From contig NZ_MVBD01000015.1 of NCBI RefSeq assembly GCF_002000055.1, positions 1 through 64,000 on the forward strand: a DNA stretch of 64,000 nucleotides, written 5' to 3'. This document shows positions 769 through 59,800 of the stretch, in pieces. A program made the translations under genes and the position numbers. Every line of letters begins with the position of its first letter. Position 1 is the stretch's first letter. The notes under the pieces are model-generated. The model was not told where the DNA came from. It searched no databases and saw nothing but the letters and a program-made list of their open reading frames with translations. The stretch is from Marinicella sediminis. Its GTDB lineage: Bacteria > Pseudomonadota > Gammaproteobacteria > Xanthomonadales > Marinicellaceae.

Positions 769-1161
769 TAGTTTCCCACCATGAGAATCTTGATAATTAA
801 TGTCTGCACCATACTTTGCAAGTATCAAAAATGATTGCGTCTTCAGTTCAGAAGCTGCATGTAACAATGCTGTTCGTAAACCATGATAATTTACAACATC
901 AGGGTCTACTTTTCCCTCTTTCAGTAATTTTTCAAGAATGGTGTTTTGATCATTATCAATTAGTTTCACCAAGTCATAATTAACAATAGGCTTATCCTTA
1001 GAGATTGATTTTTCATCATCAACAGCAATATTTCTAAGAGACGTACTTTTCATCATTGAATTAAAGTCAGTATTTATGCTGTCAGTCAAAAGACTATTAC
1101 CTAGAAAATAAATAACAGTCAACAGTGTTACTCCACTCAAAACTAATTTAAACCTCCTCAC
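736..1161 (-). pseudogene. Truncated ankyrin-repeat membrane-anchored protein, probable immunity protein remnant
   Basis: This 141-aa frame starts with a signal anchor (MRRFKLVLSGVTLLTVIYFL). It continues with a linker and about two ankyrin units (TALLHAASELKTQSFLILAKYGADINYQDSHGG). The homologous neighbour at 2934-3860 is 308 aa, so some 170 residues are missing. After the second repeat the protein runs into about 12 unrelated residues encoded by the putative transposase-element end, then stops. Its ATG overlaps the stop of the orphan RHS tip by 4 bp (ATGA), the same coupling seen for the intact pair. I read it as the immunity partner of the orphan RHS tip, cut by the mobile element. Residual function is possible, because many immunity proteins are short. 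The sequence is AT-rich compared with the RHS core. Confidence 0.6.
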
Positions 1162-2852: not shown

Positions 2853-2933
2853 TACTCGGTTACCGAAGTCACCTTCTGGGTCTAAACCAAGAGATCTGTG
2901 AGATCAAGTCGGGACTACTACAGCTGTATCATT

Positions 2934-3860: not shown

Positions 3861-6800
3861 TTGGAAACCTCCTCTACACCTGGTAATTCATTAGACTCTT
3901 TGATCCACTCCTCTTCCCTCTTAATTCTCATAGTTTCAGTATACATAATATCTCTTGATTCGGTTTGAAACTGATTAAACTTGTAATTTAAATAGTTAAC
4001 TAACCTCTTCTTACTTAAAGAATCAATCTTTTCCGAAGCTACAGGGTTAATAATTTTTGCCAATCCACGAAGTCTAGCAATTCCAAAATTCTCTAAAATC
4101 TTTTCGATGCTTAGGCTTGTGGGGAAATCTTCCACTCTCAATATATCTACAAACCCTCTTTTATTCAAAATGTTCCTCATCATTTCATATTCATCATTAC
4201 TATCAATTTTTGAATGGTACTTGTGAGTATAAGGAAAAGGGCTATTTGCATCTAAAATCTCATTATTTTGCTCTATCAATTCCGCAATCGCTAAACTTAA
4301 TCTTTGTTCAAAATTCGACTTACTGATATTAGTTTTACCTGTTCTCTTTGAAAACTCGAATAACGCCCATGCTCTCGATCTAAATGCATTAATTCTTTTA
4401 GTGTCCATAAATCTATAAGCTTTATCTGTGCTTGTACCATCCAAACCATGACCAATCACTTCACCGGGACTTTCTTCCTCTAAGCTACCAAGAGTTTCTA
4501 AAGTTATATGATAGAAACTATCTGCATAAGTATGGTCAGCAGTTGCGTATTGTGCGATATTTTCAGCGTGATGTTCAGCAAAATACTTAAAGGCTCTTTT
4601 TACATAAATTGATTTCGTGTTACACAGAGCGTGATTTCCACAATTATTAATAACAGTATCATCATATAATTCAAAATAATCCCTAGTTAAAAATGGTGAT
4701 TGCAATTGACCTAAAACTGTTAGAGCAAATCCAATAGAGTTTTTCATAGCATCATGTTGTTCAAACTCATCACCGATCTGGGAACCAATGGCAAAAGCAT
4801 ATGATTCGTCCTTAGAAAGACCAACCACATCTGCAATCATCAATGATTCATAAAAATGTACAGTTGCATCACCTTTGCCAGTAGGGTCATAAAATTTTAC
4901 CGGGTTGTTAGCTGTGTAATTATATCTATGCATACTAGTAGGTCTCAATTGATAACCCTGCAATGGATCCTCCCTCAAAAACCTCCCAGTAAACGAATCA
5001 TAGTACCTGGCGTTGGCGTAGTAAAGGTCGGTGTCTTCATCTTTGAGGTAGCCGGTGAAGCCGAAGGGGCTGTCGCTGGTAGATGTTTCTTGATTGAGAT
5101 TGCCCCATACGTCATAGTCCATGCGGTTTTGGATGGAGCCGTCCTGGTTGGTGATGGCCACGTTGGTGCCCAGGGCGTCGGCCAGGTAGTAGGCGCGCTG
5201 GCCGTTTCTGGTTTCGGCCAGTTGGCGTCTGGCACCGTAGTGGTAGGTGGCCAGGGTGTTGCCGATGGCGTTGGTTTCGGCGATCAGGGTAAGCCCATCG
5301 TACAGGTAGCGTTTTTCGTTACCAGATGCGGAAGTGGCTTTAACCCTTTGGCCGGCGTAATCGTATTCGTATTGATGCGGTTGAGCGGTGCCAACGGTGA
5401 TGCTTTTCACCCGTTGTCTGGGTGTGTAATCGAACACACTGGTGGTGCCGTTTTCGGTTTTCTCGGTCTGGTTACCAAAGGCATCGTAAGCGTAACTGAT
5501 GTCCAGGCTGGCACCATCAGTGACTGATGTTAGTTGGTCCCGGTCATTGTAAACATAGGTGCGGGTGTTGATGTTACCGGCTGTATCGATTATTTCTTCT
5601 TTTCGATTACCTACTTTATCCAGGGTATATTCCACGCGTTTGGTGGGGTATTCAACAACATCCAGCCTGTCCGCACCGTCGTAATAATATGACGTAATGG
5701 CTGATGCATCGATGTTACTCTCGATCAGTTGGGTACGGTTGCCATTGGGGTCGTAGTCATATTCGTGACTGGTGACGGTGACGCCAGATTGCTTGTTGTC
5801 AATCAGACTGATGCGGTTGGCGTTGTCGTATTGGTAATTGGCTTCTGAACCATTGGGGTAAGCGATTTGTGCGGGCAGCCCGGCTGTGTTGTATGTCCAG
5901 GTGAAGGTACCCAGGCCTGTCTGGGTCAGGGTTTTCAGGCGATTGGCGTCATCATAGCTGTAATCAGTGACCTGGTTGTCGTGGTCACGGAACACCGTGC
6001 GGTTACCGTTGGCGTCATAATCGTAGAAGAAGGTGTTGCCATATCGATCGGTTTTGCTGGTCAGGCGGTCCAGGTTGTCATAGGTCATGCTGTAACCATG
6101 ACTGAGGCCATCAACCACTTCAGCCACGCCTTCCACGTTGCCATTGCCATCCAGGGTCAGGGTGACGCTGGCCGAGCCGTAGGTGCCAATGTATTCCTGG
6201 TTGTACTGACGGTTCAAGTCGTCGTAGTTGTATGTGACATTGACACCATTGGGGTGCTGGATACCAGTCAGGTTACCGTTGAGGTCATAGTCATAGCCCA
6301 CCACATCGGTGTTACCTGGGTAGGTTTTGGTCTTTTTGCGGTTCCGATTGTCATAGGTAAAGCGGGTGACCCGGCCTTTGGCATCGGTGATGGTCTCAAG
6401 GTTATCGGCTGTGTCATAACCATAGATGGTCTCGATCACTTCAGGTACGTTTCGTACATGGGTCAATCGATTGGCTGCATCGAAATCATACTCCCAACGC
6501 TGTCCGCCCGGTTTGATGACTGCGGTGCGGTTGTTATTGAGGTCATATTCAAAAGTTGTGGTCTCACCTGCGCCATTGGTCTCAGTGAGTAACCGACGGC
6601 GTAAGTCATAAGTTCGCGTGGTGTCATTGGGTCCCGGGTTGTTCTGCAACAGCACATCACCAAAAGCATCGGGTGTGAATGTGACCACCAGGCCTTCGGG
6701 CATGCTGCTGCGGGTTTTGTGGTACTGGGTGTTGTATTCATGGGTGGTGGTTTTACCGCGGGCGTCTTTTTCGGCGATCACCAGGCCAGCGTTGTTGTAA

Positions 6801-9800
6801 GTGGTTTCACTTTGCAGCAACCCTGCCCTGGTGAATGTAGTCTGACGGTTTTCCAGGTCATAGGTGTATTCACTGGTGATGCCACGGTAATCGGTTTGAG
6901 TGAGCAGGTTACCCAAGGTGTCATGATTCATGGTCATGGTGAATGCACCGGTGTCTTGTTGATGGGTCTGGTTCAGGTCATTGACCAGGTATGTGGTGGT
7001 GATTAATCTGGAATCAGTCTGACTGGTTAAATTGCCATTGAGGTCATAGCCAAAGGCCATGTCATAGCCATCAGGTCCGCTGCTGCTGCCTCTGCGCCCA
7101 AGGGTGTCCACTGTGTGGGTGATGGTTCCATTGGGGCCGGTGTCGGTGAGCAATTCACCGAACACCGTGTAGGTGTAGGTATGGCCACGGCCCAAAGGCA
7201 ATATTTCTGCCACGCGCTGATGTAAATCGTTGTAGTTATAGGTACTGAGCTCGCCGTTTCCATCAGTCATGGTTTTGATGTTGGAGTCAGCATCATAAGT
7301 TTGTGCTTTGACCAATCCGACCAAGTCCGTTTGTGACAGTTCACGGTTGAGTTCATCGTACACATAGGTCACGATGTTGCCGTTGGGCCAGGTTTCGGTT
7401 TTCAGGTTTCCGGCCTGATCGTAAGACAAGCGCCAGGTTTGCTGGTTGATGGTTTTCAGGGTTGGCAGGTTCAGGTCATTGTAACCATAGGTGGCAAAGT
7501 AACCGTTTGGTTTGGTCTCGGAACTGATGTTGCCATTGCCATCGTATTCATACACCATCGCCCCACCTTCAGGCAGGTTCACCTGTTTCAGGCGGTTGGC
7601 CTTGTCGTAGGTGTTGGTGGTGATTTGATTGCCAGAGCTGTTGTGGATTTCCTCTGAAGTGAGGTTACCGTTGCCGTCATAGGTCATGGTTTTACCTGAG
7701 CCCAATGGTCCACTCATGGTCAGCATGCGGTCAAAGGCATCATAGGTATAAATGGTGGTGTTTTGGTTGGGATCGGTTTCAGTCAGCACATTGCCGTGTC
7801 CATCCACGGTGCGGCTGATCAACACGTCACCCTGTGGCCCATTGCGTTTCACACTGTCCTGGAAATAGCGATCCGGATCATAGGTGTAGGTTGTGACCCG
7901 GTCACCGGTGGTTTCGGTGAGGACATTGCCGACATTGTCATAGGTGTAGGTGGTGACCTTACCCAATGGCTCAACTTTGGTCCTCAGGCGATTGGCCGCG
8001 TCATAACTGAACCCTGTGGTGTGTCCACCAAAATCTGTTTCGGACTCTTTATTACCATTCAGGTCATAGACATAGGTAAACGTGTCCAATGCCGCATTGG
8101 TGATCTCCAACAACCGACCTTGCGTGTCGTATTCATACCGCGTGGTGTTGTCGTTGGGGTCTGTTTCGGTGCGTATCAGACCACCGTTTTCATAGTCATA
8201 GGTCCAGATTCTGCTGTTCAGGGTTTTACTGAGCATGCGGTCTGAATTGTCGTATGAGTAAGTGGTGAGGTTGCCATTGCCGTCTGTTTCACTGAGTTTT
8301 TGTCCCCTGGCGTTCCATACCGCTGTGGTCTCATTGCCTTCAGGGTTCCTCATGGAGGACTGATAGCCCAGATCATCATAGGTGATCAAAGATACATTGC
8401 CCCTGCCATCGGTGATGGTGATCACCTGGCCACGCGCGTTGTGATCATAGCCGGTACTGATGCCTGACAGTTCCTCAGAGACTTTATTGCCATGGATGTC
8501 ATAGCTGTATTCAGTGAGGTCACCCCGCCAATTGGTGTGGGTTTTCACCCGTTCCTTGATGAAAGGTGGCTGAAACTGATCCGGCGCATAATAACTGTAC
8601 TGGCTGATCAATGAGCCCAAACGCTCTTCAATCACATTGCCGTATTGGTCGTATTGGAATGAGCGCAGGCGATTGTTTTCATCGGTTTCACTCATCAACA
8701 ACACATCGGTGTCGGTGTTCCAGTTAAAAGTCCGGGTCCCGGCAGGGGAAGTGATTTCCGTGGCCGCGCCATAATCATTCAGGGTGTATTGACTGAGCTG
8801 ACCGTTCTGCGTCACGTTGGCATTGTCGTTGTAGCCGATGCCCGGGGTGTAGTTGAAGCTGGTCACACCGGCATCAGACTCTTCAATCGAAGCCACTTCA
8901 ATGCTGAAAATATCAGGCAAGTCTCCCATATCAGTGGGCAGTGAAACGCTTTTATTGCGGTAACTCCAGGTGCGGTTGGCACTGGTGGACTGATCATCCA
9001 CTGTCAACAGCAATGAGCGATTCGGTCCTGAGACATCACCGGCATACCCCAACACTTCGTTGGTGGTGTCACCTTCCCGCTGTGCACTGATGAGGTTACC
9101 GATGTCATCGAATTCAAAGGTCAACAAAATACCAGCAGGGCCTGACACTGACACCAGCATTTCATTGCGATATATGCCAAAGTCATGCAGCTCATAGTTG
9201 AACAACAAACGACGGCCAACTGAATCGGTGACTGAGCGAATCACCGGTGCTTTGTTTCTGGATTCGACCTGTACTGTCAGTCGGTTGCCGTTGGGATCCT
9301 CGACATAATCCATCCACCAGACATTGTCCTGTCTGCGGGTGTAGTGATAGCGATTGCCACCTTTGGGATAAAAATCGAAACTGTTGTCATCGTTGAGCAC
9401 CAATGATGAGTGGTATCCTTTCAAAGGAATGAATTCATCACCCTGGATTCTGAAACGGGCCGAGCCGCCATCAGCACCGGTCACCACCACCTGTCCGCAG
9501 CTGCCGATGATGACCCTGGAGAGGTAATTAAAACTCCAGCCATAGCCCAATGGACCCAACTCTTGCCTGCCTTGTGAACTGTAGGTTCTGGTGAATTCCA
9601 GGTCAACCCCGGGTGAAACCAGATGAATGTCCTGTTTGGAATACACCATTGAACCATCGGCCAGATCCACACCCTTAACAATGGCATGTCCCACGGGCAG
9701 TGAATTGCTGACGTCGTATCTGGACACCAGGCCACCATAGACCACCTGTTCATCACCATTGTCCTCTGCCACGGCTGTGATTCTTAAGGTGTACTGATGA

Positions 9801-48441: not shown

Positions 48442-50706
48442 TCAATTCAACTGAAAACCGTGCTCAAAAATCAGGTCATCCAGTTCACACTCAACCGGCA
48501 CTGAAAAGTCTTCGGTTTCATCGCCGGTGCTAAAGACGCTGCCGGAACTGGCATTAACGCCCAAACCCCGCTTCGCAAAACCACGCCAGATTTCGCACTG
48601 GTTGGCCCCGGCGTTGTTGTTGATGTCGGCTTGCAGAATGGCATCACGGCCACTGACAAATCCAGGGTTGCAGGGTTGCAGCTTCAAACCATCGGTCACC
48701 AATTGAATGGCGATGTTGTTGCCACCCGTACCGGTGTACAAATCGGCATCAAAACCATGCTTATTGACCAGGTTCCAGTACACTTCCCACAACATTTGTG
48801 CCCAGATCGAACCGGTGTAGTGCGGACTGCCATTGGCATTTTCCAGGTCTACAAAGGTGTGGCTGTTGATTCCCAGATCAGTTGAATAAGGAAAGGTCCG
48901 GATGCCGCCGGGGTTTTGCGTGGCATATGAGCCCATGGGCCTGGCCTGGGTCGCCCCATCACCTGGATCAGCGGTCATCACCAGGGCATAATAATCACTC
49001 CAGCCTTCACCCATTTGTTCAGCGTTGCTTAAACAGCCGGATTGAGATGGTCCACCGGTGAGGCGATTGGAAATGCCATGACCGTATTCATGAATGATGA
49101 TGCCGTTGTCAAAATCACTGTCCCGGTCGGCATTGACTTTGACCATGTCTGCATCGACTGAATTGCTCAATTGTGCGCGGATGGCGTTACCATCAGACTG
49201 ACCCAGCATCAATGACGGAATACTGACCGAGCCGCCCTGGGCACCCGGGCCCATGGTGCTGACCCCATCACCCTGGTTGTTGACCACAATGGCACCAATG
49301 GCGCCTGCGTTTTCGGCATTCAACACCTTGACTCCAAACTCACATCCTCCCCGATCTAACAAAGCAATCCTGCCTGCCGTGAAGCCCACCAATGACTCAC
49401 AGGCATCGCTGCTGGTGTCTGTCTGGTCATCCACTTCTTCGATCAGACCATTGACTGCCAAGGTGGTTAAAGGCGCACCAAAACTTGCGGTTCCGGCGAC
49501 ATAAGTCCCGGCCACCGCAGGTGGGGTGTTGACCACCAGATTTGGTGCTCCGTTGAAATAGAACATTTGCATGCGCGGATTCTGACCATCTGGCGGGGTT
49601 CCGAAGTTGGCATTGTTGGTGCCGGAACCATCCTGGGCATCGGCATTCACCGCATCGCTACCCAGACCTCCATTACCATAGTTATTTTCCTGGAAATTAC
49701 CTGAAGCCTCATCGAAACCATATTGGTACATGAAATCATGAATGATGTTGTTCCAGTAAAACAGGTTAACAATGGCCGCTTCGAGGTTTTGTTCTTCATC
49801 CGGATCAACCGCCGGATTCCAGGGCACATCAAACACCAGTCCGGCACCGCCATCTGGTCGTGATCCACCCGAGTTATTGGCATCCAGGTCATCCTGGGCA
49901 AACACATTGTTACCCCGGGTGTCGGTGAATTCAGCACCGGCATTGCCATCGGTGTCATGCCAGCCAAATGGCGAGGCGGTCAGGTCATGGGGGTCCACCA
50001 CTGTTTCCAATTGGTAACCATTGTCAGCGGGTGACTCATTGGGGAATGGAATCACATCATAACTGGCATGAGCCACCCAGTTAACCTGATCAATGACCTG
50101 ACCTGAAATGGCATCCACCCTGAGGCTCCACCAGGCATCTGCGGTCTGGATCTGCATGTCCCATGCCAGACGTACCGCGCCGTTGTCCTGCTGGTACACC
50201 AGTTTTACCGGAATGTCAGCGGTTGAGACTTCTGTGGATTGATACACCGCTGATTGATCATCACCCTGGTGGTGACTGATGTTCAACGCAGGCAAACGGG
50301 TACTCAGTCCCAGGTGCTGTGCGGCATTGAGAATCGCCAGATCTGCCGGGATCACCGGAGAAGCAGATGGTGCATTGCTGGCCAGATCAGTCACGAATAA
50401 ATTGTGGGTATTGATCAGCTCACCTTTGTGATTCAGGTTGACTTGCAACAAGCCGTTGTAGACTTCAATGCCACTGAATTGTTGTTTAAAAACCAGGTGA
50501 GTGATGCCATTGTGCCGGCTCAGATAATGATCAGTCACAGCTGCATCCTGCAAATCCTGTTGACTGATGTTGAGTGTTGATCTTTGGCTGGCCAGTAAGT
50601 TTCTGGCCTCTTCAGCGCCAAAAAGCTGATATCCGGCGGCTTGAATGCCAGACACGGACAGACATAAGCCACATGCCGCTGCCAGCATGGAGATTGTATT
50701 TTTCAT
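48442..50706 (-). CDS. Secreted fungalysin-type (M36) metallopeptidase with PA insert
   Basis: The 754-aa product has a signal peptide (MKNTISMLAAACGLCLSVSG), an FTP/propeptide domain (about 40-120, HLVFKQQFSGIEVYNG), and an M36 catalytic domain. A PA domain is inserted before the active site (about 400-510, GCEFGVKVLNAENAGAIGAI). The zinc motif is HEYGH (H539, E540, H543), and a glutamate ligand lies in MGEGWSDY near 566. The protein ends in DDLIFEHGFQLN, a tail similar to that of the giant protein (FLFNDGFECV), possibly a sorting signal. It has AGAGGGT before the ATG and lies 210 bp downstream of the RiPP cluster on the same strand. It is most simply a nutritional or matrix protease; a role in peptide maturation is only a possibility. 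Confidence 0.93.
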   Translation of the reverse strand: MKNTISMLAAACGLCLSVSGIQAAGYQLFGAEEARNLLASQRSTLNISQQDLQDAAVTDHYLSRHNGITHLVFKQQFSGIEVYNGLLQVNLNHKGELINTHNLFVTDLASNAPSASPVIPADLAILNAAQHLGLSTRLPALNISHHQGDDQSAVYQSTEVSTADIPVKLVYQQDNGAVRLAWDMQIQTADAWWSLRVDAISGQVIDQVNWVAHASYDVIPFPNESPADNGYQLETVVDPHDLTASPFGWHDTDGNAGAEFTDTRGNNVFAQDDLDANNSGGSRPDGGAGLVFDVPWNPAVDPDEEQNLEAAIVNLFYWNNIIHDFMYQYGFDEASGNFQENNYGNGGLGSDAVNADAQDGSGTNNANFGTPPDGQNPRMQMFYFNGAPNLVVNTPPAVAGTYVAGTASFGAPLTTLAVNGLIEEVDDQTDTSSDACESLVGFTAGRIALLDRGGCEFGVKVLNAENAGAIGAIVVNNQGDGVSTMGPGAQGGSVSIPSLMLGQSDGNAIRAQLSNSVDADMVKVNADRDSDFDNGIIIHEYGHGISNRLTGGPSQSGCLSNAEQMGEGWSDYYALVMTADPGDGATQARPMGSYATQNPGGIRTFPYSTDLGINSHTFVDLENANGSPHYTGSIWAQMLWEVYWNLVNKHGFDADLYTGTGGNNIAIQLVTDGLKLQPCNPGFVSGRDAILQADINNNAGANQCEIWRGFAKRGLGVNASSGSVFSTGDETEDFSVPVECELDDLIFEHGFQLN

Positions 50707-50849
50707 GATTACCCTCTTGTTTATGTGGTGGTTAAGAAATGCGTTTTGGTTTTTTTATGGTGTTATTATTAAAACTCAAAATCGCCGATATCATAATGGC
50801 TGTTGGCTGTTATTACCAGCCTGCAGTTGTGAAAATGTGAACATCATCC

Positions 50850-50886
50850 GGTGATTCAATGGATTGACTACAATCCGATGATCACC
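50850..50886. repeat. Two-part hairpin downstream of the RiPP cluster
   Basis: GGTGAT (50850-50855) pairs with ATCACC (50881-50886) and encloses GGATTG/CAATCC (50861-50866/50871-50876). No T-run follows, so it is at best a weak terminator or an RNA-processing site between the radical SAM gene and the fungalysin gene. Confidence 0.35.
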
Positions 50887-50916
50887 ATGTTCGGTATCAA
50901 TGGTTGTTGACCAATG

Positions 50917-52806
50917 TCATGAACTGATTGTCCGCAAGGGGATGGTTTTTCGGGGCATCAATTGACCACCTGGATATCCTGGCTGTTGTGAGTCAGGTTG
51001 TGACTGTAAATCAGGCATGGTCACCAATGACACGCTCCGCCCCCCTAAAACCACCACTAAATTCCTTGCCAGCAAACGCTGATGAACCGCCAGCCAATCA
51101 ACAGTCTGATCATCCAACCTGGAAACCAGGGCAGCTATTTTGCTGGGCTTGCGTAATTCAACCAACAGCCGTGCTTCCTCAGGCGGCAATGCATACAACA
51201 CTTCTTTGGCGATGCGCCTGGTGTCTTTAATGACATGCACATCACCAGTTGACAGGAGTTTCAATTCAGGCAAGCTGGCTCCGGCATGGCTGGCGGCCCG
51301 CCATTTGCTGATGGCATCACGCAAAGGTTTGACATAATCGAATGCCGGTACATTCATGGGCACGGCAGTGAAAAAATAAGCCAGTTGGTCCAAGGCGGCC
51401 GCATCCAGGTCATAAACATGCTGATAAGCCTCGCATGGTTTGATGTGACGAAAACCCAACTGGTCGGCTTTTTCAAAATATGGGCTGAAGCGATCCAATC
51501 GCACCACTGAACATCCGCCGGGCGGGTCCAGGTGTTCCAAAGCTGGCAGTAAATTCGCCATGGCTGTGTACTGTTCTGCTGTGTCGTTGGGGATCCCACA
51601 AAGCACATTCCAAATGACTTTGATTCCCAGTTCAGCACAATCCCGCAACAAGCAAACATTTTGTGCTGCTGAGACCCCTTTTTCCAGTTCCTTGAGCACC
51701 GCGTCATCCAGGCTTTCAATGCCAGGCTGTACGTGTTTAACACCTGCCCTGGCTATGATTGCCAATTGTGAACGCTTCATGTTGGCCTTGATTTCAAAGA
51801 AATAACTTGCTTCGGGTAACACCTCAGGCAACTGCCTGAATACCGTGTTGACATGCTTTAAGTCCATGATGTTGTCAGCAGCCTGAAAGTCATTGATCGA
51901 CCATTGTTTGTTTAAACGGCTCAACTCTGTGATGACCTGCTGGTCAGTCTTGCTCCGGTAATTCATGTGATCGCCATTCAATCCACAAAAACGACAATGA
52001 TGTTTGGCTCCCCACCAGCAGCCCCGTGATGTTTCGAACAATATCGTCGGGCGAATGCGGTCTTTGAAGGTACTGTCAGCCAGGGCTGTAAAGTAATCAT
52101 CATAAACCGGGATTGGTAATCTTTCCATGTCGACCGGTTGGCTGGCATTGATTGATCTTTCAAGTGGGGCTGGCTGGTGGCTGATCATTGTTGCGGGTCT
52201 TTGCCGTCTGGCAAACACCCCATCCACAAAACTCAGAAAACTGTTTTCAGCTTCTCCGGAAAATACCTGGTCTACCTGCGCAAAGTGCTTCAACATGGCT
52301 TGCCCCATTGGCCCTTCACAATTCGCCCCACCAAAGCAAGTGATGATGTCTGGGTTTTTATTTTTGATCAACCTGGCCAGTTGTAAAGAAGCACAGTTTT
52401 GTTGAAAAGTGCTGGAAAATCCGACAATCCGTGGCTGTTTTTGTGTCACCTCATCGACCATCTTTTGCAAAAAAAGCGCCACCTTCTGAAAAGCCAGCAT
52501 GATGGCTTGTTGGTTGTTGTGGGAGATCCATTTATCCAGCTTTTGTAAATAAGACCTCAGGGCATCTGGTCCCAGCCGATGCATCCGGTCAGAAAAAACC
52601 GCTTCACCCACCAATAAGCTGGTGGGAATGTCCTCACAAATCATTTCATTTAAATCAATCCCAATCCAATCTGCATAAGCCAGATTCAGGTAACTGACCT
52701 GACAATCATACTGATTCTGTTGTAACACAGCGGCCAGGCTGCTGACCCCCAGAGATGGTCGCAAAACTGACAGAAACGGGGCGGTTATCAGCAACACATC
52801 AGTCAT
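50917..52806 (-). CDS. B12-binding radical SAM enzyme, RiPP maturation C-methyltransferase type
   Basis: The 629-aa product has an N-terminal cobalamin-binding-like domain (LLITAPFLSVLRPSLGVSSL; later FGGANCEGPMG) and a radical SAM domain with the unusual cluster spacing C263-x7-C271-x2-C274 in RGCWWGAKHHCRFCGLNG. The C-terminal part lacks a SPASM domain. The CWWG.K..C.FCGLNG block is that of the TIGR03975 family (RiPP maturation radical SAM protein 1), whose members include peptide C-methyltransferases. ATG 52806 overlaps the preceding radical SAM gene by 8 bp; the longer frame to 52878 lies inside it. The likely substrate is the 79-aa peptide encoded at 53925. The residues modified are unknown. 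Confidence 0.87.
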   Translation of the reverse strand: MTDVLLITAPFLSVLRPSLGVSSLAAVLQQNQYDCQVSYLNLAYADWIGIDLNEMICEDIPTSLLVGEAVFSDRMHRLGPDALRSYLQKLDKWISHNNQQAIMLAFQKVALFLQKMVDEVTQKQPRIVGFSSTFQQNCASLQLARLIKNKNPDIITCFGGANCEGPMGQAMLKHFAQVDQVFSGEAENSFLSFVDGVFARRQRPATMISHQPAPLERSINASQPVDMERLPIPVYDDYFTALADSTFKDRIRPTILFETSRGCWWGAKHHCRFCGLNGDHMNYRSKTDQQVITELSRLNKQWSINDFQAADNIMDLKHVNTVFRQLPEVLPEASYFFEIKANMKRSQLAIIARAGVKHVQPGIESLDDAVLKELEKGVSAAQNVCLLRDCAELGIKVIWNVLCGIPNDTAEQYTAMANLLPALEHLDPPGGCSVVRLDRFSPYFEKADQLGFRHIKPCEAYQHVYDLDAAALDQLAYFFTAVPMNVPAFDYVKPLRDAISKWRAASHAGASLPELKLLSTGDVHVIKDTRRIAKEVLYALPPEEARLLVELRKPSKIAALVSRLDDQTVDWLAVHQRLLARNLVVVLGGRSVSLVTMPDLQSQPDSQQPGYPGGQLMPRKTIPLRTISS

Positions 52807-53860
52807 GGTCAAACTGCTGTGTTGTTGGCTGCGGGGGTGGCTGGCTGCTGTTGAGCCCGATGATGCCGTAAATGGCATGTTGCAGCTTCAATGAAGTCAA
52901 CTTATCCGGCAGCGCTTTATCGAGCAATGTTTGATTGGAGGGATTGTTGAACAACTGGTCACAGGCATGACATATGCCATCAAAATCTTCATCCTCCATG
53001 GGCTGTTCAGTTCCTGCTGTGATCTGTTTCATGATCTCCACCGGTCCCTCATATGCCAGCCATTGCAAGACTGGATCTTCATGTGCCTGGCTGAGTACTT
53101 CACCCAATTCATGCGATCCCAGGTTACCCATTTCCAATGCCGCAGGTGGTTTGATGACGCCACAACAAGGCACCCATTGACCATTTGATTGGGCCGAAAT
53201 ATGGCGCAACACCGAGGTACATGGTCCACGGTATACCTGATCTGCCTGTGCCCTTTGCCGGCGGGTGGATTCTGATTCGTCCTGTTTTGCCCGGCCTGTG
53301 CTGTTCACTGCGGTTTCACTGATTTTCAGTAAGCTGTTATAACGCCCCCTGGGGTTAAGCAATTGTTCCATGTGGTTTTTATCAATCAGGTCATCGGGTT
53401 CCCTGACCACATTAATTTTGACCTCAACACCATTGTTTACCGCCGCCTGAAAAGCATTCACAATGTAATGCTCATCCAGGTAAGCGGCATGGGCATCGTC
53501 GTATGAAAGCATGATTTCACTCAGACCAGCATCAATGAAAGGCTGCAGGGTTTTGACAGCCCGGTTTTTGGTTTTGGCCCAGAAGGCACTGGTCACCACA
53601 GCGGTGTTCAACCCCAGTTGACTGGCTTGTTTGATGCCTGCCAAGAGGATCTCTTTGGCAACAAATGGGTCTCCGCCTGTGAATGAAACCTTGTTAATTG
53701 AGGGTATGTCCTGACAAGCCAGGATGCTGTTCAGGACCTTGGTTTTGTCCAGCGATTCGCTCTGATTGATGTCAGCCTCAACGCAACAGTGACTGCAATT
53801 CAATGGACATTTCAACGTCAAATGAATAACCAATTCCTGTGTTGTAAAGTTTTTTTTCAT
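52799..53860 (-). CDS. Radical SAM peptide-modifying enzyme with C-terminal Cys-rich (SPASM/twitch-like) part
   Basis: The 353-aa product has the canonical radical SAM motif C18-PLN-C22-SH-C25 at the start and FTGGDPF (the GGE-like motif). The auxiliary-cluster region has further cysteines: RGPCTSVLRH, WVPCCGV and DGICHACDQL. That places it with RiPP-modifying radical SAM enzymes carrying a SPASM or twitch domain, which make thioether, C-C, or epimerised products. The gene lies 64 bp after the precursor with a hairpin between, and it overlaps the B12 enzyme gene. The chemistry cannot be read from sequence. Confidence 0.85.
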   Translation of the reverse strand: MKKNFTTQELVIHLTLKCPLNCSHCCVEADINQSESLDKTKVLNSILACQDIPSINKVSFTGGDPFVAKEILLAGIKQASQLGLNTAVVTSAFWAKTKNRAVKTLQPFIDAGLSEIMLSYDDAHAAYLDEHYIVNAFQAAVNNGVEVKINVVREPDDLIDKNHMEQLLNPRGRYNSLLKISETAVNSTGRAKQDESESTRRQRAQADQVYRGPCTSVLRHISAQSNGQWVPCCGVIKPPAALEMGNLGSHELGEVLSQAHEDPVLQWLAYEGPVEIMKQITAGTEQPMEDEDFDGICHACDQLFNNPSNQTLLDKALPDKLTSLKLQHAIYGIIGLNSSQPPPQPTTQQFDHD

Positions 53861-53875
53861 CTGTTGTCATCACAC

Positions 53876-53910
53876 GCAGGTACCAACAAGTAGAGCTGGC
53901 TGGCACCTGC
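53876..53910 (-). promoter_or_regulatory. Stem-loop between precursor and first downstream maturase
   Basis: GCAGGTACCA (53876-53885) pairs with TGGCACCTGC (53901-53910) with one mismatch. There is no T-run. In RiPP operons such a hairpin often keeps precursor mRNA higher than that of the enzyme genes; here this is inferred from position. Confidence 0.45.
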
Positions 53911-53924
53911 TGACTATCTGTCAA

Positions 53925-54164
53925 TCAAAAGTCAATGTGCACCACAGCGGCAGCGACGGCTTCACCGGCGGCTTTGCTACTGGCATGATTGGCAATCGCT
54001 GCTGCGGTTGCTTCATCGACATGAATGCCCAGTGACTTCAGGAAACGCTGTGGATCATCACACAGGCTGTTGATGACATTTTCTTTGTCCAGACTTTCAC
54101 TGGCTGCTTTCAGCTTTTCTACATCGGTGTCAATGGAAAGCTTGATGGCTTGAATATTACTCAT
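53925..54164 (-). CDS. RiPP precursor peptide, NHLP-like leader, core ending VVHIDF
   Basis: The 79-aa peptide has a leader of about 60 residues, including the block SLCDDPQRFLKSLGIHVDEA (about 33-52) that resembles nitrile-hydratase-type (NHLP) leaders. A small-residue C-terminus follows (SSKAAGEAVAAAVVHIDF). No Cys is present in the last 40 residues, so thioether formation is unlikely. Val, His, Asp and Phe at the end are candidate modified residues. ATG 54164 follows a GAGG site. An in-frame upstream extension to 54224 would add a hydrophobic stretch but has only a TTG start. It sits between the methyltransferase and radical SAM genes, all on the minus strand. Precursor status is inferred from context and composition. 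A GG protease site is absent. Confidence 0.78.
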   Translation of the reverse strand: MSNIQAIKLSIDTDVEKLKAASESLDKENVINSLCDDPQRFLKSLGIHVDEATAAAIANHASSKAAGEAVAAAVVHIDF

Positions 54165-54305
54165 GGTAAGTACCTCTTTTTCAATCATTAAAATCATCGC
54201 AACGAGGGCTGCCAGCACCCACAACAGCAGGTATTGACGGTTCTCATTACACCATTCAGATCGAGGTAAAAAACCCCTGCACTGAATTCTTTGACGGCCA
54301 ACAAC

Positions 54306-55733
54306 TCACAGGTTGATTAATGCCAATCGTTCATTCACAAGCTGGCTGATGTTTAAGTCCACGGCCGAAGCCAGTCGTTCTACGCTTCCATACTCATCCA
54401 CCCAATCCTGATAACAATACACAGCAATCAGTTCACTGTTGTGCTTCAGGCCGCTCAATAATCGTTTTTTTTCTCCGGCTTTTGCCCCCAGCAATCTGCC
54501 AGGCATCAACAGCGTCAATGCCAGCTTATCCGGTTGATCTTCCAGCCACTCAATCAGCGCCTGGCTGAACATATTGATGTGTTGGAAGTGTTGCTGATGT
54601 TCGGGTAACAATAATCTGGCATGTTCAATGTGGGATTGCACATGATCGCAACCCATGGGAAACAGTGCTGACTGGTTGTCCAGCAGCTGCCTGAGCAAGT
54701 AGCCATTCCCACAACCCAGGTCCAACACCCCACCACTGCGGTCCGCCAAAAGTCCGTGTAACCCTTCAATCACCGAAGCTTGTTCCTGCAGCATGCCCGC
54801 TTCAGTTTGAAACCCGTTGTCAAGCCACAACCTTGACTGCAACTGATGGGCTGCTGATTGTTGGCCCTTAATGAACAGTTGCCTCTTGGTCAGTTTTGGC
54901 TTTGATTGCACCTGAAAGGGAAACCCACCACCAACAGCCGACTCTACGGGCTGATCGATACCTGATCGCTTGACGCTGTAGGTGATGGCGGTGGCATCAG
55001 TGTTGTGTGCGATCTTGGCAACCGGCAATCTGATTTCAGCAATCCCGTGCAGTGCCGAGAAATGCATTGGCCAACTGAGCAATTGGCAGATCCACTCTAA
55101 GGCCTGTTGATGGCCTGACTGAATCAACAGCTGCTTGTTGGTTTCTGCAACCTGTAGTGAATGTGCACACCGGTCACTGCAGGCCCAATGTGAAATCATT
55201 TGTACGCCAAGCGTCTTCAGCATAGGATTCAACCACTCATGTCCTGACAGTTCACAGGACACCTCACCGGGTTCTGCTGTTTGTGCAGCCAATGGCCACA
55301 GCAATGAAGTCATGTGCTGATGTTGTTGATAAAATGACACGCAACAAGCTGGGTAACCCAAATAGTGTCCCACTGTTTCATGGTCTTGCTTTTTCACCGC
55401 GTCCTGAATGATTCCTGCCAGGGAAAACTCACAAATCAGTACCGTGATGTGTGCAATATCCAACCGGCCATCCTGATCATTTTTATTGGCTTCCATGGCA
55501 ATGGGTACTGCCAACAGTGAGGTGCTCACTGTTCTGATCAGTACATCAGCAAAAGTCATGTTGTCGATCCTGACGATGGCGGCCTTGCGGGTCCCCTGGA
55601 ACACCGATTCAATCTCAATGGCAGTGAATGCCTGGTTGATGGTTTTGATGCGCTTGGTCCAGATTTCCGCAATTTGTTCAGTGGTCCAACTGATGCGTTT
55701 AAATGGTTTTAATTTGAAGTTCAAACGTTGCAT
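54306..55733 (-). CDS. Fusion of DUF483-like domain and class I SAM methyltransferase, RiPP cluster
   Basis: The 475-aa product has two parts. Residues about 90-220 carry GHYLGYPACCVSFYQQH (CC at 130-131) and HWACSDRCAHS (about 182-192), the pattern of DUF483-like proteins, possibly metal or cluster binding through the Cys residues. Residues about 310-475 are a Rossmann methyltransferase with motif I VLDLGCGNGYLL (336-347) and MGCDHVQSHIEHA. It overlaps the preceding radical SAM gene by 13 bp. It may methylate the precursor or act with the radical SAM enzymes. I know of no defined reaction for this fusion, so function is inferred only as far as SAM-dependent transfer. Confidence 0.75.
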   Translation of the reverse strand: MQRLNFKLKPFKRISWTTEQIAEIWTKRIKTINQAFTAIEIESVFQGTRKAAIVRIDNMTFADVLIRTVSTSLLAVPIAMEANKNDQDGRLDIAHITVLICEFSLAGIIQDAVKKQDHETVGHYLGYPACCVSFYQQHQHMTSLLWPLAAQTAEPGEVSCELSGHEWLNPMLKTLGVQMISHWACSDRCAHSLQVAETNKQLLIQSGHQQALEWICQLLSWPMHFSALHGIAEIRLPVAKIAHNTDATAITYSVKRSGIDQPVESAVGGGFPFQVQSKPKLTKRQLFIKGQQSAAHQLQSRLWLDNGFQTEAGMLQEQASVIEGLHGLLADRSGGVLDLGCGNGYLLRQLLDNQSALFPMGCDHVQSHIEHARLLLPEHQQHFQHINMFSQALIEWLEDQPDKLALTLLMPGRLLGAKAGEKKRLLSGLKHNSELIAVYCYQDWVDEYGSVERLASAVDLNISQLVNERLALINL

Positions 55734-56893
55734 GATTGCCCACCAGTGCGTTTCACTGCGGATGACACGCTTTCGGGGAAGCCTTGTTCCCAGGACGACA
55801 GCAAGGTTTGCTCAATCGCCAGTCGGTTGGCTGCCAGCGACAAAGGCTGCAATCCCTGATCAACCAGCTGACCTTCAAAGTGGGTGAACAGGGTTTTCCA
55901 GACTTCGCAATATTCTGAGCGGTTTCGCCAATCAGCCCCAACACCAGTGCCAGGACAATTGCCTTTGCACATCATGAAAAATCGACACCCCTGACAACCA
56001 TTGTGTTCCTGGGGAACATGATACAAAGCCAACTGTCGCTCATAGCCCGGGGTACCTGATTTGATGAAGTCAATGCCATCCTTGTTGGTTCTGCCACAAT
56101 TACTTTGCTGGCCAAAACCCTCAACGCCCTGCACGGCCATGGTGGTGTAGGGATCACAGGTGTTCCAGACACATCCTGTTTGCTGATCATCACCCATTAA
56201 CATCCTGCGCATGTCATCAAACACATCAAACCTGATGTGCTTCAAGCTGGGCTCCAGTTCATTGAAAAACAGGTATGCAGCCATGTTTTCTTGTTGTGTC
56301 ATGGCAAACAAACGACGATTTTCTTCGGAGTCAATTTCCAGTATATGCAACCTGACTTTTTCAATACCGAGGTCATCCAGGTAATGTACCCACTCAGCCA
56401 ACCTGGGTAACTTGTCAGCCGATCCGTTGGCTTTGTGTAAGGTGATGATCACCGAAGGATGCATGTCTGCCAGACAGAGCTTTTCAATGGCCTGATGGGT
56501 TTTTTCACTCAATTCTCTGGTCTTTTTCAACGATCCAGCCCACCGGGTGTCATTCATTTCACCCGGACCATCGGCTGAGATACCTACTTTTACCCGGTAT
56601 TTTTTGAACAACCTGATGTGTTCATCAGTGATCAGTGTGCCATTGGTTTGGCAGGCATTTTGACCAAACTTGTTCAGTCCAAATGCCAGAATCTCTTCCA
56701 GGTCATCGATTGGCATCAGCAATGGTTCACCACCAAACAACACAAATGGCTGATTGATTTGTTCAATCGCGGCTTTCATCAGTGACATGTCGTAATGATT
56801 GGCTACGTTGCCTGCATCACGCATTGGGTTTTGATAACAGTATTGGCACATGATGTTGCATTTGATGCCCAATGGGCGCAGTTCAACACCCAT
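55721..56893 (-). CDS. Radical SAM/SPASM enzyme, first gene of RiPP cluster
   Basis: The 390-aa product has C12-NIM-C16-QY-C19, the GGEPLL motif (about 54-59), ISADGPGEMND, and a C-terminal SPASM region with GCQGCRFFMMCKGNCPGTG plus earlier Cys at GCVWNTC and SNC. This is the architecture of anSME-like and RiPP-modifying SPASM enzymes. ATG 56893 has a GAGG site. It is the first gene after the promoter at 57019-57047, overlaps the methyltransferase gene, and with the enzyme at 52799 gives two SPASM-type enzymes in one cluster. Confidence 0.88.
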   Translation of the reverse strand: MGVELRPLGIKCNIMCQYCYQNPMRDAGNVANHYDMSLMKAAIEQINQPFVLFGGEPLLMPIDDLEEILAFGLNKFGQNACQTNGTLITDEHIRLFKKYRVKVGISADGPGEMNDTRWAGSLKKTRELSEKTHQAIEKLCLADMHPSVIITLHKANGSADKLPRLAEWVHYLDDLGIEKVRLHILEIDSEENRRLFAMTQQENMAAYLFFNELEPSLKHIRFDVFDDMRRMLMGDDQQTGCVWNTCDPYTTMAVQGVEGFGQQSNCGRTNKDGIDFIKSGTPGYERQLALYHVPQEHNGCQGCRFFMMCKGNCPGTGVGADWRNRSEYCEVWKTLFTHFEGQLVDQGLQPLSLAANRLAIEQTLLSSWEQGFPESVSSAVKRTGGQSCNV

Positions 56894-57018
56894 GAGTGAA
56901 CCTCTCTGATGGCAGGCATGGCCTCAATACAGACTTGAATGACATGTGCGTTCCCCCTTTTCCAATTACCAGGTCGAAGGCTTTCAACACTGGTGTACGT
57001 TTATTTTTGTTTTATTTT

Positions 57019-57047
57019 ATCGTACAAATTTGCATATATATAGTCAA
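57019..57047 (-). promoter_or_regulatory. Sigma70 promoter of the RiPP operon
   Basis: On the minus strand, TTGACT (57042-57047) and TACGAT (57019-57024) are separated by exactly 17 bp in a very AT-rich region. The predicted leader to ATG 56893 is about 120 nt. Nothing else is seen in 56894-57147; a 72-codon plus-strand frame there has no coding features. Confidence 0.65.
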
Positions 57048-57147
57048 CTTAATTAGCCATTATTTTTATGTCTCTGCATACATACATGATCAGGATGTTG
57101 AAAAAAGCGGGTAAGACCAGCATCCAATGTCAGTGGGGAAAGGGTTT

Positions 57148-57600
57148 TCAGAAAACCAGCAGCAATAGTGAAATCAACCCTACAATGCCGATCACCTGAG
57201 GCAGCAAACGGCCATGGTATCCGGGAATCAGCACGGACTGACCCGGTTTTTTGGGGTTGATCAATACGTCGACAACATCCCCTTTATGTAAACCATGAAC
57301 GTGCGCACAACTTTCGGCATAGTCTGTAGACCACAGGTCGCCGTATTGCAGTTTTTTGCGGGTAAAGGTCCTGCCTCTGAATATGTATTGGTATTTGATT
57401 TGAGGGGCGCTTTCTTCAACCCCATCATCTGAACGGGTTTTGATGTGTACTTCCAGCAATGTGGCTTTCACCGGATGCCAGCCATGCGCTGCTTCACCCA
57501 GGCGATGGTTACGGATGATCCAGAATAACAATGCCAATAAAAAGGCCACCATAAGCATGGTGGCCCAAACAGGTCCGCCTGTCGAAATACTGAAACTCAT
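57148..57600 (-). CDS. DUF3592-family membrane protein
   Basis: The 150-aa product has two membrane segments (about 10-30 and 132-150) flanking an approximately 95-residue soluble beta-rich part. That part has IKYQYIFRGRTFTRKKLQYG and GDVVDVLINPKKPGQSVLIPG. This is the DUF3592 pattern; function is unknown in the family. It is a single gene between the tyrosine-degradation genes and the RiPP promoter, transcribed in the same direction as both. Confidence 0.8.
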   Translation of the reverse strand: MSFSISTGGPVWATMLMVAFLLALLFWIIRNHRLGEAAHGWHPVKATLLEVHIKTRSDDGVEESAPQIKYQYIFRGRTFTRKKLQYGDLWSTDYAESCAHVHGLHKGDVVDVLINPKKPGQSVLIPGYHGRLLPQVIGIVGLISLLLLVF

Positions 57601-57637
57601 CGGCTTGTCAAGTCAGCTGTGACTCCAACCCGGATGA

Positions 57638-58618
57638 TCAATACTTGACCACTTTTTGATGAATGGTACCAAAAATGTTGTGATCATTTTCATCAGTGAT
57701 TTCAATCTTCACATCATCACCAAACTGCATGAATGGGGTTTTGGCTTTACCATCGGCAATCACTTCCAACACCCGTTTTTCAGCCAGACAGGTAGAGCCT
57801 TTGGCCATGTCGTGATTGGCAATGGTGCCTGAGCCGATGATGGCGCCGGCCGCCAGGGGCCTGGTTTTTGCGGCATGGGCCACCAATTCGGCAAAATCGA
57901 ACTGCATATCAACACCACAATCAGGCTCACCAAACCACTCACCATTCAGCCAGGTGCGCATGGGTAAATGTATTTTATGATCGCGCCAGGCCGAGCCCAG
58001 TTCATCAGGGGTGACAAAAAACGGTGACAAGGCTGTTCTGGGTTTGGACTGCAGAAAACCAAACCCTTTGGCTAACTCAGCCGGAATCAGGTTACGCAGT
58101 GAAACGTCATTGAGGATACATATCAACTGGATGCATTGACCCGCTTCAGCCACAGATGCATTCATGGGTACGTCAGTGGTGATCACTGCTGCTTCCGCTT
58201 CAAAATCAATACCATACTCTTCACTGACCACTTCTACGTCCTGATTGTGCGACAAAAAGCCATCACTGACCGCCTGATACATCAGGGGATCTACCTTAAA
58301 GCTTGGCGGCATGTCAGCTCCACGGGCTCTCCTCACCCGCTCCACATGGGCCAGGTAAGCACTGCCATCAAGGAATTGATACGCCCTGGGCAATGGTGCG
58401 ATGACCTGATCAAGGTCAAGATCAAAAGCATCATTCAAGCCACCCTGGTTCAGATGCTCATAGACGGTGTTCAATTGTGGAGCGACGTTTTCCCAATTAT
58501 CCAGCGCCTGTTGCATGGTCTGTGCAATGTGTGGCACTTTCACGGCCTGGGTACCAGCCCGGTTCACCACGATCAGTTGTCCATCGCGGGTTAGGTTGTT
58601 GAGGGTTGCTAGTTTCAT
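57638..58618 (-). CDS. fahA: Fumarylacetoacetase (FAH family)
   Basis: The 326-aa product belongs to the FAH family: YGIDFEAEAAVITTDVP (metal-binding E-x-E near 139-141), the conserved FGFLQSKPRTALSPFFVTPDEL, and GSGTIANHD. It splits fumarylacetoacetate into fumarate and acetoacetate, the last step of tyrosine degradation. It is the third gene of the hpd-hmgA-fahA operon, 57 bp after hmgA. Without its neighbours it could be another FAH-type hydrolase, but the context makes the assignment firm. Confidence 0.9.
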   Translation of the reverse strand: MKLATLNNLTRDGQLIVVNRAGTQAVKVPHIAQTMQQALDNWENVAPQLNTVYEHLNQGGLNDAFDLDLDQVIAPLPRAYQFLDGSAYLAHVERVRRARGADMPPSFKVDPLMYQAVSDGFLSHNQDVEVVSEEYGIDFEAEAAVITTDVPMNASVAEAGQCIQLICILNDVSLRNLIPAELAKGFGFLQSKPRTALSPFFVTPDELGSAWRDHKIHLPMRTWLNGEWFGEPDCGVDMQFDFAELVAHAAKTRPLAAGAIIGSGTIANHDMAKGSTCLAEKRVLEVIADGKAKTPFMQFGDDVKIEITDENDHNIFGTIHQKVVKY

Positions 58619-58675
58619 ATTAATCTTGTCTTTCGTTGTTGGTTAGTTGTTGATTTAATGTGTGCCGGCAAAAGA

Positions 58676-59800
58676 TCATTCCTTCCATGAATTGACATAA
58701 TCAGGCCATTCGACCTGTTCTGCAGCATCACATACTTCCAGTGGATCGCGGGTATCGATCATCACCGCCACTTCTTCTGTCATGGCATTTTTTTGCTCGA
58801 AAGCATGGCTCATCGCCTTGGGGTGCGGCCCATGGGTGAAACCGGTCGGATGCAGGGTGATCATACCCGGATGAATGTTATCCCGCGAGAAAAAATTCCC
58901 CGCATGATAGAACAGCACTTCATCATAATCATCATTGTTGTGATAAAAAGGTACTTTCAGTGCCTCAGGATCGGTTTCAAATAACCTGGGTACAAAAGTA
59001 CAGATCACAAATCGATTACCCAGGAATGTGGTGTGCGCTGATGGGGGCACATGGAATCGGTGACTCATCAAAGGCGATATGTCCCGCCAGTTCAATGCCA
59101 CTGGCATCAGATCTCCCTGCCAGCCCACCGCATCCAGTGGATTGAAAGGGTATTGAATGGTGGATATTTTTTGCAGCCGTTTGACCAGTACAGTCCAATT
59201 TTCTTCGCCGTATTGAGCACGGAATGGATCATTGATTTCAGGGACCCGGTAAACCGCAGCATCAACAATGGCATTGGGACCCAGTAAACCTTTATCAGGC
59301 AACTGGTAATGACCATTGGTTGATTCAACCATCAAAATTTCGCAAGGGTTCGCCACCTCAAGTCGCCACATGGTGCCTTTGGGGAGTAACAGGTAATCCC
59401 CTTCTTTGACCACCAGATGACCAAAGTCACAGTATAAATCAGCGGTGCCTTTATGAAAAAACAGTAAATCATCACCATCGGCGTTACGGACCAGTTGTTG
59501 CATGTTTGCATCCAGTCTGAGCATGCGGATTTTGACGCTGTTATTTTTCATCAGCACATGGGCATCCCAAGGGGTGCCATGTGCACCGCCGAACAGGTTG
59601 GTATCAAAAGCCCTGGGGCGGTTATCACCTTCAAAATGTGTCCAACCAGTGTGTTTGTGTTGGTGATAAAAGTGAGTCACCGGCCCAAAAAAGCCTTCTT
59701 TACCCATTTCACGTTCATAGGTGTTTTCAGGAAAGCCAAGGTGCGCTTGTTTGGCCACCTTGCCTTGTTTCTTGTGAAAATTAAACCATTTGCCGTTCAT
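58676..59800 (-). CDS. hmgA: Homogentisate 1,2-dioxygenase
   Basis: The 374-aa protein is the short bacterial form of homogentisate dioxygenase. The iron-binding area is visible in HNNDDYDEVLFYHAGNF and GMITLHPTGFTHGPHP. An N-terminal cupin-like domain has DLYCDFGHLVVKEGDYLLLP. It opens the homogentisate ring with O2 to give maleylacetoacetate. The start overlaps the hpd stop by ATGA. No maleylacetoacetate isomerase is in the window. Confidence 0.92.
   Translation of the reverse strand: MNGKWFNFHKKQGKVAKQAHLGFPENTYEREMGKEGFFGPVTHFYHQHKHTGWTHFEGDNRPRAFDTNLFGGAHGTPWDAHVLMKNNSVKIRMLRLDANMQQLVRNADGDDLLFFHKGTADLYCDFGHLVVKEGDYLLLPKGTMWRLEVANPCEILMVESTNGHYQLPDKGLLGPNAIVDAAVYRVPEINDPFRAQYGEENWTVLVKRLQKISTIQYPFNPLDAVGWQGDLMPVALNWRDISPLMSHRFHVPPSAHTTFLGNRFVICTFVPRLFETDPEALKVPFYHNNDDYDEVLFYHAGNFFSRDNIHPGMITLHPTGFTHGPHPKAMSHAFEQKNAMTEEVAVMIDTRDPLEVCDAAEQVEWPDYVNSWKE

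Follow-up and report, generated by a model that had tools for sequence, protein, structure and literature searches.

A rare radical SAM peptide locus in Marinicella sediminis shares its first two enzymes with a viral module found beside H-x-D arrays

The stretch analysed here, 64,000 nucleotides of Marinicella sediminis (contig NZ_MVBD01000015.1, positions 1 to 64,000; hereafter the window), carries a compact minus-strand cluster of five genes at 50917-56893. They encode a radical S-adenosylmethionine (SAM) enzyme of SPASM type, a fusion of a DUF483-like domain with a methyltransferase, a 79-residue putative precursor peptide and two further radical SAM enzymes. The locus is real, conserved and rare, and the kind to which its first two enzymes belong occurs mostly on viral contigs. 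There, such enzymes form a module that stands beside long arrays of the motif H-x-D (histidine, any residue, aspartate), an association which is the firmest new fact of this study. The original prediction, made from the sequence alone, had seen in the window a RiPP (ribosomally synthesised and post-translationally modified peptide) cluster with this gene set; our analysis supports the compact RiPP locus, while what had been missed is that viruses carry the leading pair of enzymes as a module with a link to H-x-D arrays. We consider it probable that the first two enzymes of this RiPP locus modify H-x-D, likely by a three-residue His-Asp cyclophane together with methylation, and that the other two radical SAM enzymes epimerise and C-methylate.

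A viral enzyme module beside H-x-D arrays

Plasmid searches with the radical SAM/SPASM enzyme (55721..56893, minus strand) revealed two haloarchaeal relatives (33 and 32% identity), each followed by a DUF483-like gene, and these rows were added to the alignments before the IMG/VR scans. The scans yielded 109 relatives of the radical SAM enzyme, of which the best 80 were used, and 29 of the DUF483-like protein, often on shared contigs. The fusion protein as a single query gave no match on plasmids and no confirmed match on viral contigs; the alignments with haloarchaeal rows reached viral relatives. At an expect value (E) ≤ 1e-20, 102 IMG/VR loci with the radical SAM gene were obtained, some of them from one contig, and dereplication at 90% left 58, of which 51 contain a DUF483-like gene. 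Neighbouring genes compared with PHROGs (six genes from four loci) belong to helicase, baseplate hub, tail tube, tape measure, endolysin and baseplate wedge families. The pair also occurs in the isolated Thermus phages Cumys, phiMa and phiLo.

A module composed of a radical SAM protein, a DUF483 protein and an unknown protein has been described in Cumys, phiMa, prophages and cyanobacteria, and a function in DNA modification was suggested (PMC11437467, 2024). The same source mentions DUF483 fusions to methyltransferase or radical SAM domains, and the string 'HxD' is absent from its text. Over 387 amino acids, the window enzyme shares 49% identity with Cumys_12, and the DUF483-like part of the fusion (54306..55733, minus strand) is 26% identical to Cumys_11, annotated as DUF483, over 310 columns (E 1e-31). 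The unknown protein in the same row of Cumys and phiMa genes is shown here to be an H-x-D array. Differences from the window locus are that Cumys_11 lacks the methyltransferase part and that no YydG-like, B12-binding radical SAM or short-precursor gene is annotated in the phage stretches examined; tblastn (E ≤ 1e-3) found no relatives of these three window genes in loci L072-L180. Viral relatives of the radical SAM/SPASM enzyme reach 51% identity (E 7.5e-143). In its tree, the window pair (the window enzyme and that of the related genome G030) stands among phage rows at a 59-row fork with a Shimodaira-Hasegawa-like approximate likelihood ratio (SH-aLRT) support of 96; the outgroup rows are long-branched and one of them lies inside the phage rows, so that the tree gives no firm direction of transfer between phage and bacterium.

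We defined an array as an open frame with at least eight H-x-D/N triplets and with more of them than any of 200 shuffles (six-frame recount). Such arrays are present in 55 of the 58 dereplicated viral loci, in all 55 on the strand of the radical SAM gene, and they hold a median of 31 triplets (range 9-97), at the median 5.0 times the shuffle mean. As to the remaining loci, L087 bears an F-x-N/D array with 47 aromatic-x-D/N triplets versus 12.7 expected, and the contigs of L080 and L085 begin just before the DUF483-methyltransferase gene. Both forms of the motif in the window peptide recur among the 1886 array triplets (44 HID and 82 HVD). The arrays of Cumys, phiMa and phiLo comprise 54, 53 and 75 triplets, respectively, and on a Halomicrococcus plasmid the gene immediately before the radical SAM gene contains 16 H-x-D/N, with a baseplate gene nearby.

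All residue pairs at distances 1-4 were counted in the gene that lies directly upstream of the module (53 loci). H-x-D ranks first, with 1368 observed versus 216 expected occurrences (z 78; next pair 25), a significance that is overstated since repeats are counted as independent. The per-locus counts are the safer figures: at least eight triplets are found in 45 of these 53 adjacent genes versus 19 of 486 other genes in the same loci. H-x-D is the top pair in the other genes as well (537 observed, 184 expected), because some loci carry additional arrays. Five loci with only distant relatives of the radical SAM enzyme, two of which look near-identical, show at most four triplets in any gene.

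A reverse search started from a DNA pattern that encodes four H-x-D at a period of five and matched at least 120 stretches. Among the matches listed, 61 stretches have an array (at least eight triplets), and 33 of them contain relatives of the radical SAM or DUF483-like protein, as do none of the 59 others; the count is 33 and not 34 as scripted, since L253 is an array that matches an H-x-D tail in the query. Where more than 2.5 kb flank an array on either side, the module accompanies it in 11 of 14 cases, again among the matches listed. By title or abstract, no paper on H-x-D arrays with radical SAM enzymes was found among open-licence PMC papers.

The linkage of the module to H-x-D arrays predicts its substrate motif. 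An aromatic-x-residue motif is found in the neighbouring substrate candidate, both in 55 of the 58 viral loci and, as HVD and HID, in the window peptide. H-x-D is the likely substrate of the first two enzymes, and it is the phage arrays, not the peptide by itself, from which we infer this.

Some viral loci show additional features. The phage radical SAM enzyme of L133 (6001-7377) itself carries an H-x-D-rich C-terminal tail, so that it may modify itself or dock on arrays via this tail. On the T4-like phage contigs of L083 and L091, collagen-like repeat proteins (1765-5037 and 775-3944, respectively) lie ahead of the H-x-D arrays. The same contigs encode, between the radical SAM and DUF483-methyltransferase genes, a protein of 118-122 amino acids with HADHVD-like motifs (7322-7690 and 7335-7691), which may be a carrier or a secondary substrate.

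The five-gene locus and its conservation

All five predicted open reading frames (ORFs) were found at their positions on the minus strand. In order of transcription, the genes of the radical SAM/SPASM enzyme and the DUF483-like/methyltransferase protein are followed by those of the peptide (53925..54164), a YydG-like radical SAM enzyme (52799..53860) and a B12-binding radical SAM enzyme (50917..52806), with intergenic distances of -13, 141, 64 and -8 nucleotides. The start of the last gene is most likely the ATG at 52806, which gives the 8-nucleotide overlap with the preceding gene, and not 52878, as the homologue in G030 starts at the corresponding ATG with an identical overlap. The 'one good promoter' formerly placed ahead of the cluster did not hold up: a 9-of-12 site is located at 57047-57019, but the region 49500-58500 holds 8 such sites versus 10.1 in shuffles.

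G030, which represents another genus of the same family, contains all five genes in identical order with both overlaps retained (intergenic distances -13, 170, 63 and -8 nucleotides). Identities between window and G030 amount to 74, 41, 75, 65 and 58% in gene order, the 75% being that of the peptide. The small ORF is therefore kept beside the enzymes in the sole relative found with the locus. Between the genes of the peptide and the YydG-like enzyme, a stem-loop is predicted at 53861..53924 (minus strand; -26.3 kcal/mol, z -3.1), and G030 has one of unrelated sequence at the same place 3' of the peptide gene (-24.2 kcal/mol, z -8.4). Its occurrence in both genomes despite the unrelated sequence suggests RNA-level control of peptide dose; the structure could act in processing, attenuation or mRNA protection.

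Both the fusion protein and the radical SAM/SPASM enzyme (E ≤ 1e-35) are confined to two of 151 relatives, the window genome (G000, counted among them) and G030. The radical SAM/SPASM enzyme was identified at the same threshold in one of 398 genomes of the phylum, and the DUF483-like domain in one of 349 genomes of a wider sample, each time the window genome alone. Ten of 321 genomes in the class sample matched the fusion, namely the window genome, one partial match (G181) and eight weak ones confined to the methyltransferase part. The DUF483-like fragment of G181 (L058, 42-1838) lies at a contig end and is followed by a 106-residue ORF and a gene that by eye looks HPr-kinase-like, a possible further RiPP context for DUF483-like proteins. 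A scan of genome contigs with two short patterns returned solely the G030 contig again, and owing to the use of just these two patterns it says little about other genomes.

Literature searches among open-licence PMC papers gave no described RiPP class with this gene set, as had been anticipated from the sequence; for the accompanying idea of a 'cofactor-like peptide', nothing in our analysis speaks. Beyond the five genes, nothing in the flanks is common to the window and G030 by eye, and annotation by eye of the two loci showed no common exporter or peptidase. As judged by eye, the genes on either side of the cluster are those of an M36-like protease (48442-50706) and of FAH-family and homogentisate dioxygenase-like proteins (57638-59800). 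On the Tropicibacter plasmid L052, a YydG-like radical SAM gene is likewise located near hmgA and fahA, probably by chance.

The peptide and its enzymes

The putative precursor contains two H-x-D motifs, H48-V-D50 and H76-I-D78, the second within the C-terminus VVHIDF, and both are retained in G030. Its ORF evolves as coding DNA, with 20, 9 and 45 differences at codon positions 1, 2 and 3 over 79 codons between window and G030. An H-x-D ending at the last-but-one position arises in 0.3% of shuffles, in a test picked post hoc. The middle region appears weakly NHLP-like, with a score of 15.7 bits against NF038399 (cut-off 40 bits, E 0.011), and no other NCBIfam model matches the peptide at E ≤ 1.

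The radical SAM/SPASM enzyme (390 amino acids) matches Pfam Radical_SAM and is of the phage type, with a predicted action on H-x-D motifs. Its best NCBIfam scores come from sulfatase maturase, AmcB, DynA and YhhB, every one below its cut-off. The models of cyclophane enzymes give 81.7 of 425 (AmcB), 62.8 of 445 (YhhB), 54 of 310 (GrrM/OscB) and 47.4 of 450 bits (XyeB). C12, C16 and C19 and eight C-terminal cysteines are kept in all 63 aligned rows.

The second protein comprises a DUF483-like domain (about 1-280) and a class I SAM methyltransferase domain (about 301-475); its AlphaFold model has a predicted local distance difference test (pLDDT) score of 93.7 (58 alignment rows). Residues 301-475 match solved class I methyltransferases with Z 12.9-14.7 over 145-171 residues, among the matches listed, and the sequence contains DLGCGNG. 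All fold searches with the model, including one by Foldseek, matched in the methyltransferase half only, and Pfam methyltransferase models score below their cut-offs. The window fusion reaches 17.0 of the 25 bits required by DUF483 (PF04467), a gathering score that one phage relative exceeds (L132, 28.7 bits). P128, C130, C131 and C189 are invariant across all 66 aligned rows, whereas H182 and C185 are each present in 63 of these; C185 is not retained in Cumys_11. These conserved residues may form a metal or Fe-S site. Among the dereplicated DUF483-like proteins, 40 of 65 have at least 400 amino acids, a length that is a rough mark only of a fused methyltransferase: of ten shorter phage proteins checked, three (368-398 amino acids) match methyltransferase models and seven (279-344 amino acids) do not. 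The methyltransferase domain is thus optional in the module. phiLo_141 is annotated as a methyltransferase, yet Pfam shows only a sub-threshold DUF483 match.

The fourth gene had been labelled radical SAM/SPASM-like; it does encode a radical SAM enzyme (353 amino acids), which is YydG-like and has only a weak SPASM match. We predict it to be a peptide epimerase. Its TIGR04078 score of 102.7 bits is below the cut-off of 300, which sets it apart from the epipeptide enzymes, and it aligns with the YydG structure (E=2e-11) such that C232-C233 fall on the CC pair of YydG. C233 aligns with residue 248 of chain 8ai6_A, which equals Cys223, named as the H-donor cysteine of YydG (PMC5682303), only if a 25-residue tag is assumed. 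Nine of ten cysteines are kept in G030, including C232 and C233. By annotation, YydG-like neighbourhoods on plasmids have no common gene set. On the Allochromatium vinosum plasmid L056 (3423-7002), a YydG-like radical SAM gene, another radical SAM gene and a 61-residue ORF are situated between cmr6 and csm6 in a type III CRISPR locus.

The B12-binding radical SAM enzyme (629 amino acids) belongs, by its score, to the RiPP C-methyltransferase family TIGR03975, with 600.3 bits against a cut-off of 281.85 (scored on the longer ORF from 52878). Its CX7CX2C motif is retained in G030. The family occurs above cut-off in 2 of 121 relatives and in 7 of 369 genomes of the class (window genome included), and tblastn found no relative of the remaining four proteins in the six other stretches from the class. 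On plasmids, its relatives adjoin an Os1348-family NHLP peptide in Ruegeria, a peptide with a cysteine at every fifth position in Methylomagnum and DUF5825 in Streptomyces clavuligerus; according to a preprint, a homologous B12 radical SAM/DUF5825 pair C-methylates clavusporins (PMC12026744). The S. clavuligerus and Ruegeria loci differ from the window in that no radical SAM/SPASM and DUF483 pair is annotated in the neighbourhoods examined. Two more loci of this family were noted: an unannotated locus of the Paracoccus denitrificans plasmid L047 (5571-10251) encodes a Cys-rich peptide of 130 residues, a TIGR03975-like enzyme and, by eye, ThiF-type and YcaO-type-looking ORFs, and in G178 (L067, 1185-3466) a TIGR03975 enzyme and an adjacent 52-residue ORF that contains ASVASVAS may constitute a minimal RiPP pair.

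Proposed mechanism and competing explanations

Three-residue cyclophane enzymes connect a Trp, Phe, Tyr or His at position i with the beta carbon at position i+2, where the partner is Asn, Asp, Arg, Ser or Ala; the pairs include Tyr-Asp, Trp-Asn/Asp and His-Ala/Arg, and section 16 of PMC11002830 does not list His-Asp among them. The aromatic-x-D/N motif fits this grammar, and the NCBIfam models that score best with the window enzyme are those of sulfatase maturases and of cyclophane formers. With the triceptide and cyclophane enzymes (XncB, OscB, YxdB, HaaB, YhhB), the window enzyme would have in common that a radical SAM/SPASM protein acts on aromatic-x-residue motifs; it differs in meeting no NCBIfam cut-off, and the same section of PMC11002830 names neither a DUF483-like partner nor an H-x-D motif.

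In the mechanism which we propose, the radical SAM/SPASM enzyme would act together with the DUF483-like/methyltransferase protein on the H-x-D motifs of the 79-residue peptide and form a bond from the His ring to the Asp at position i+2, at its beta carbon. Where the DUF483 protein carries the extra methyltransferase, the fused domain would methylate. The YydG-like enzyme would then invert hydrophobic residues, perhaps Val and Ile near the tail, and the B12 enzyme would methylate unactivated carbons. The leading two enzymes are members of the module which in tailed viruses stands beside long H-x-D arrays, in several cases adjoining tail or baseplate genes; in the bacterial locus, this module is joined by a short peptide and by another two radical SAM enzymes.

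Several observations weigh against this reading. Seven of the 58 viral loci show no DUF483-like gene, and three of these (L109, L142 and L145) end within or soon after the radical SAM gene. The array gene of phiLo lies about 4.4 kb off on the opposite strand, and Halorussus (L054) has the pair with no array within the 15 kb stretch. In the reverse search, the module is absent from 27 of the 61 stretches that have an array (among the matches listed); by eye, about 20 of these are simple tandem repeats, and seven look like true arrays (L184, L203, L232, L254, L260, L264 and L278), of which L260 shares its contig with L091, where the module is present elsewhere. RiPP-type loci with this gene set number just two. 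The peptide holds just two H-x-D, and two or more arise in 1.9% of shuffles (a test likewise picked post hoc); its tail half is barely more conserved than its front half (30/39 versus 29/40). Finally, cyanobacterial relatives of the module are located beside deazapurine DNA-modification genes, which favours DNA modification (PMC11437467).

Among the alternatives, it is unlikely, though worth serious consideration, that the reaction of the pair on H-x-D is a different one (for instance oxidation, decarboxylation or beta-carbon methylation of Asp, or methylation of His) and yields a metal-binding or adhesive array with no cyclophane. Many class I enzymes, protein N-terminal methyltransferases included, align with the fused methyltransferase domain, and the conserved Cys/His of the DUF483-like half resemble a metal or cluster site, as this alternative would lead one to expect. 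Against it stand the optional nature of the methyltransferase, which seven of ten short phage proteins lack by match, the i to i+2 spacing with an aromatic first residue, which fits three-residue cyclophanes, and the L087 array, where mainly Phe replaces His.

An ordinary proteusin-like or epipeptide-like RiPP, in which the modifications are due to the epimerase and the B12 methyltransferase while the peptide has its H-x-D by chance, appears improbable. Proteusins of the polytheonamide type combine an epimerase, a B12 C-methyltransferase and a further methyltransferase on an NHLP-like precursor, akin to the window set, and TIGR03975, whose cut-off the window enzyme exceeds, adjoins an NHLP-clan peptide in Ruegeria. 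The window differs in that its precursor is below the NHLP-clan cut-off and its epimerase candidate is YydG-like; moreover, the radical SAM/SPASM and DUF483-methyltransferase genes stand at the head of the operon and are retained in the window and in G030, as are both H-x-D. Still less credit is due to the view that DNA or a nucleotide is what the pair modifies, in line with the published suggestion for the Thermus phages, with the arrays as unrelated tail proteins: phages commonly modify their DNA and the cyanobacterial neighbourhoods point that way, but arrays accompany the module in nearly all viral loci and on one of the two haloarchaeal plasmids, the radical SAM enzyme has a complete SPASM-type Cys set and scores with peptide- and protein-modifying families, and its gene in the window is part of a peptide locus with no DNA-modification gene common to G030 (by eye).

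Returning to the cyclophane reading, a wider scenario can be sketched tentatively. Tailed viruses of bacteria and archaea might crosslink dozens of H-x-D in a tail- or baseplate-associated protein, giving a stapled, stiff or metal-binding fibre, and a bacterial lineage might have rebuilt the pair, with an epimerase and a B12 methyltransferase, as a RiPP pathway aimed at the single C-terminal H-I-D. The His-Xaa-Ser system (HxsB) embodies an analogous repeat-plus-radical-SAM idea. If true, such enzymes would have a new use, with radical chemistry of the RiPP type carried out on a protein of the virion. The arrays would offer a ready substrate, with dozens of like sites in one gene, in phages for which Thermus thermophilus HB8 serves as a laboratory host. 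The DUF483-like proteins would obtain a testable function and a concrete protein target as opposed to the published DNA-modification guess, and the RiPP locus of M. sediminis would gain a predicted site of action.

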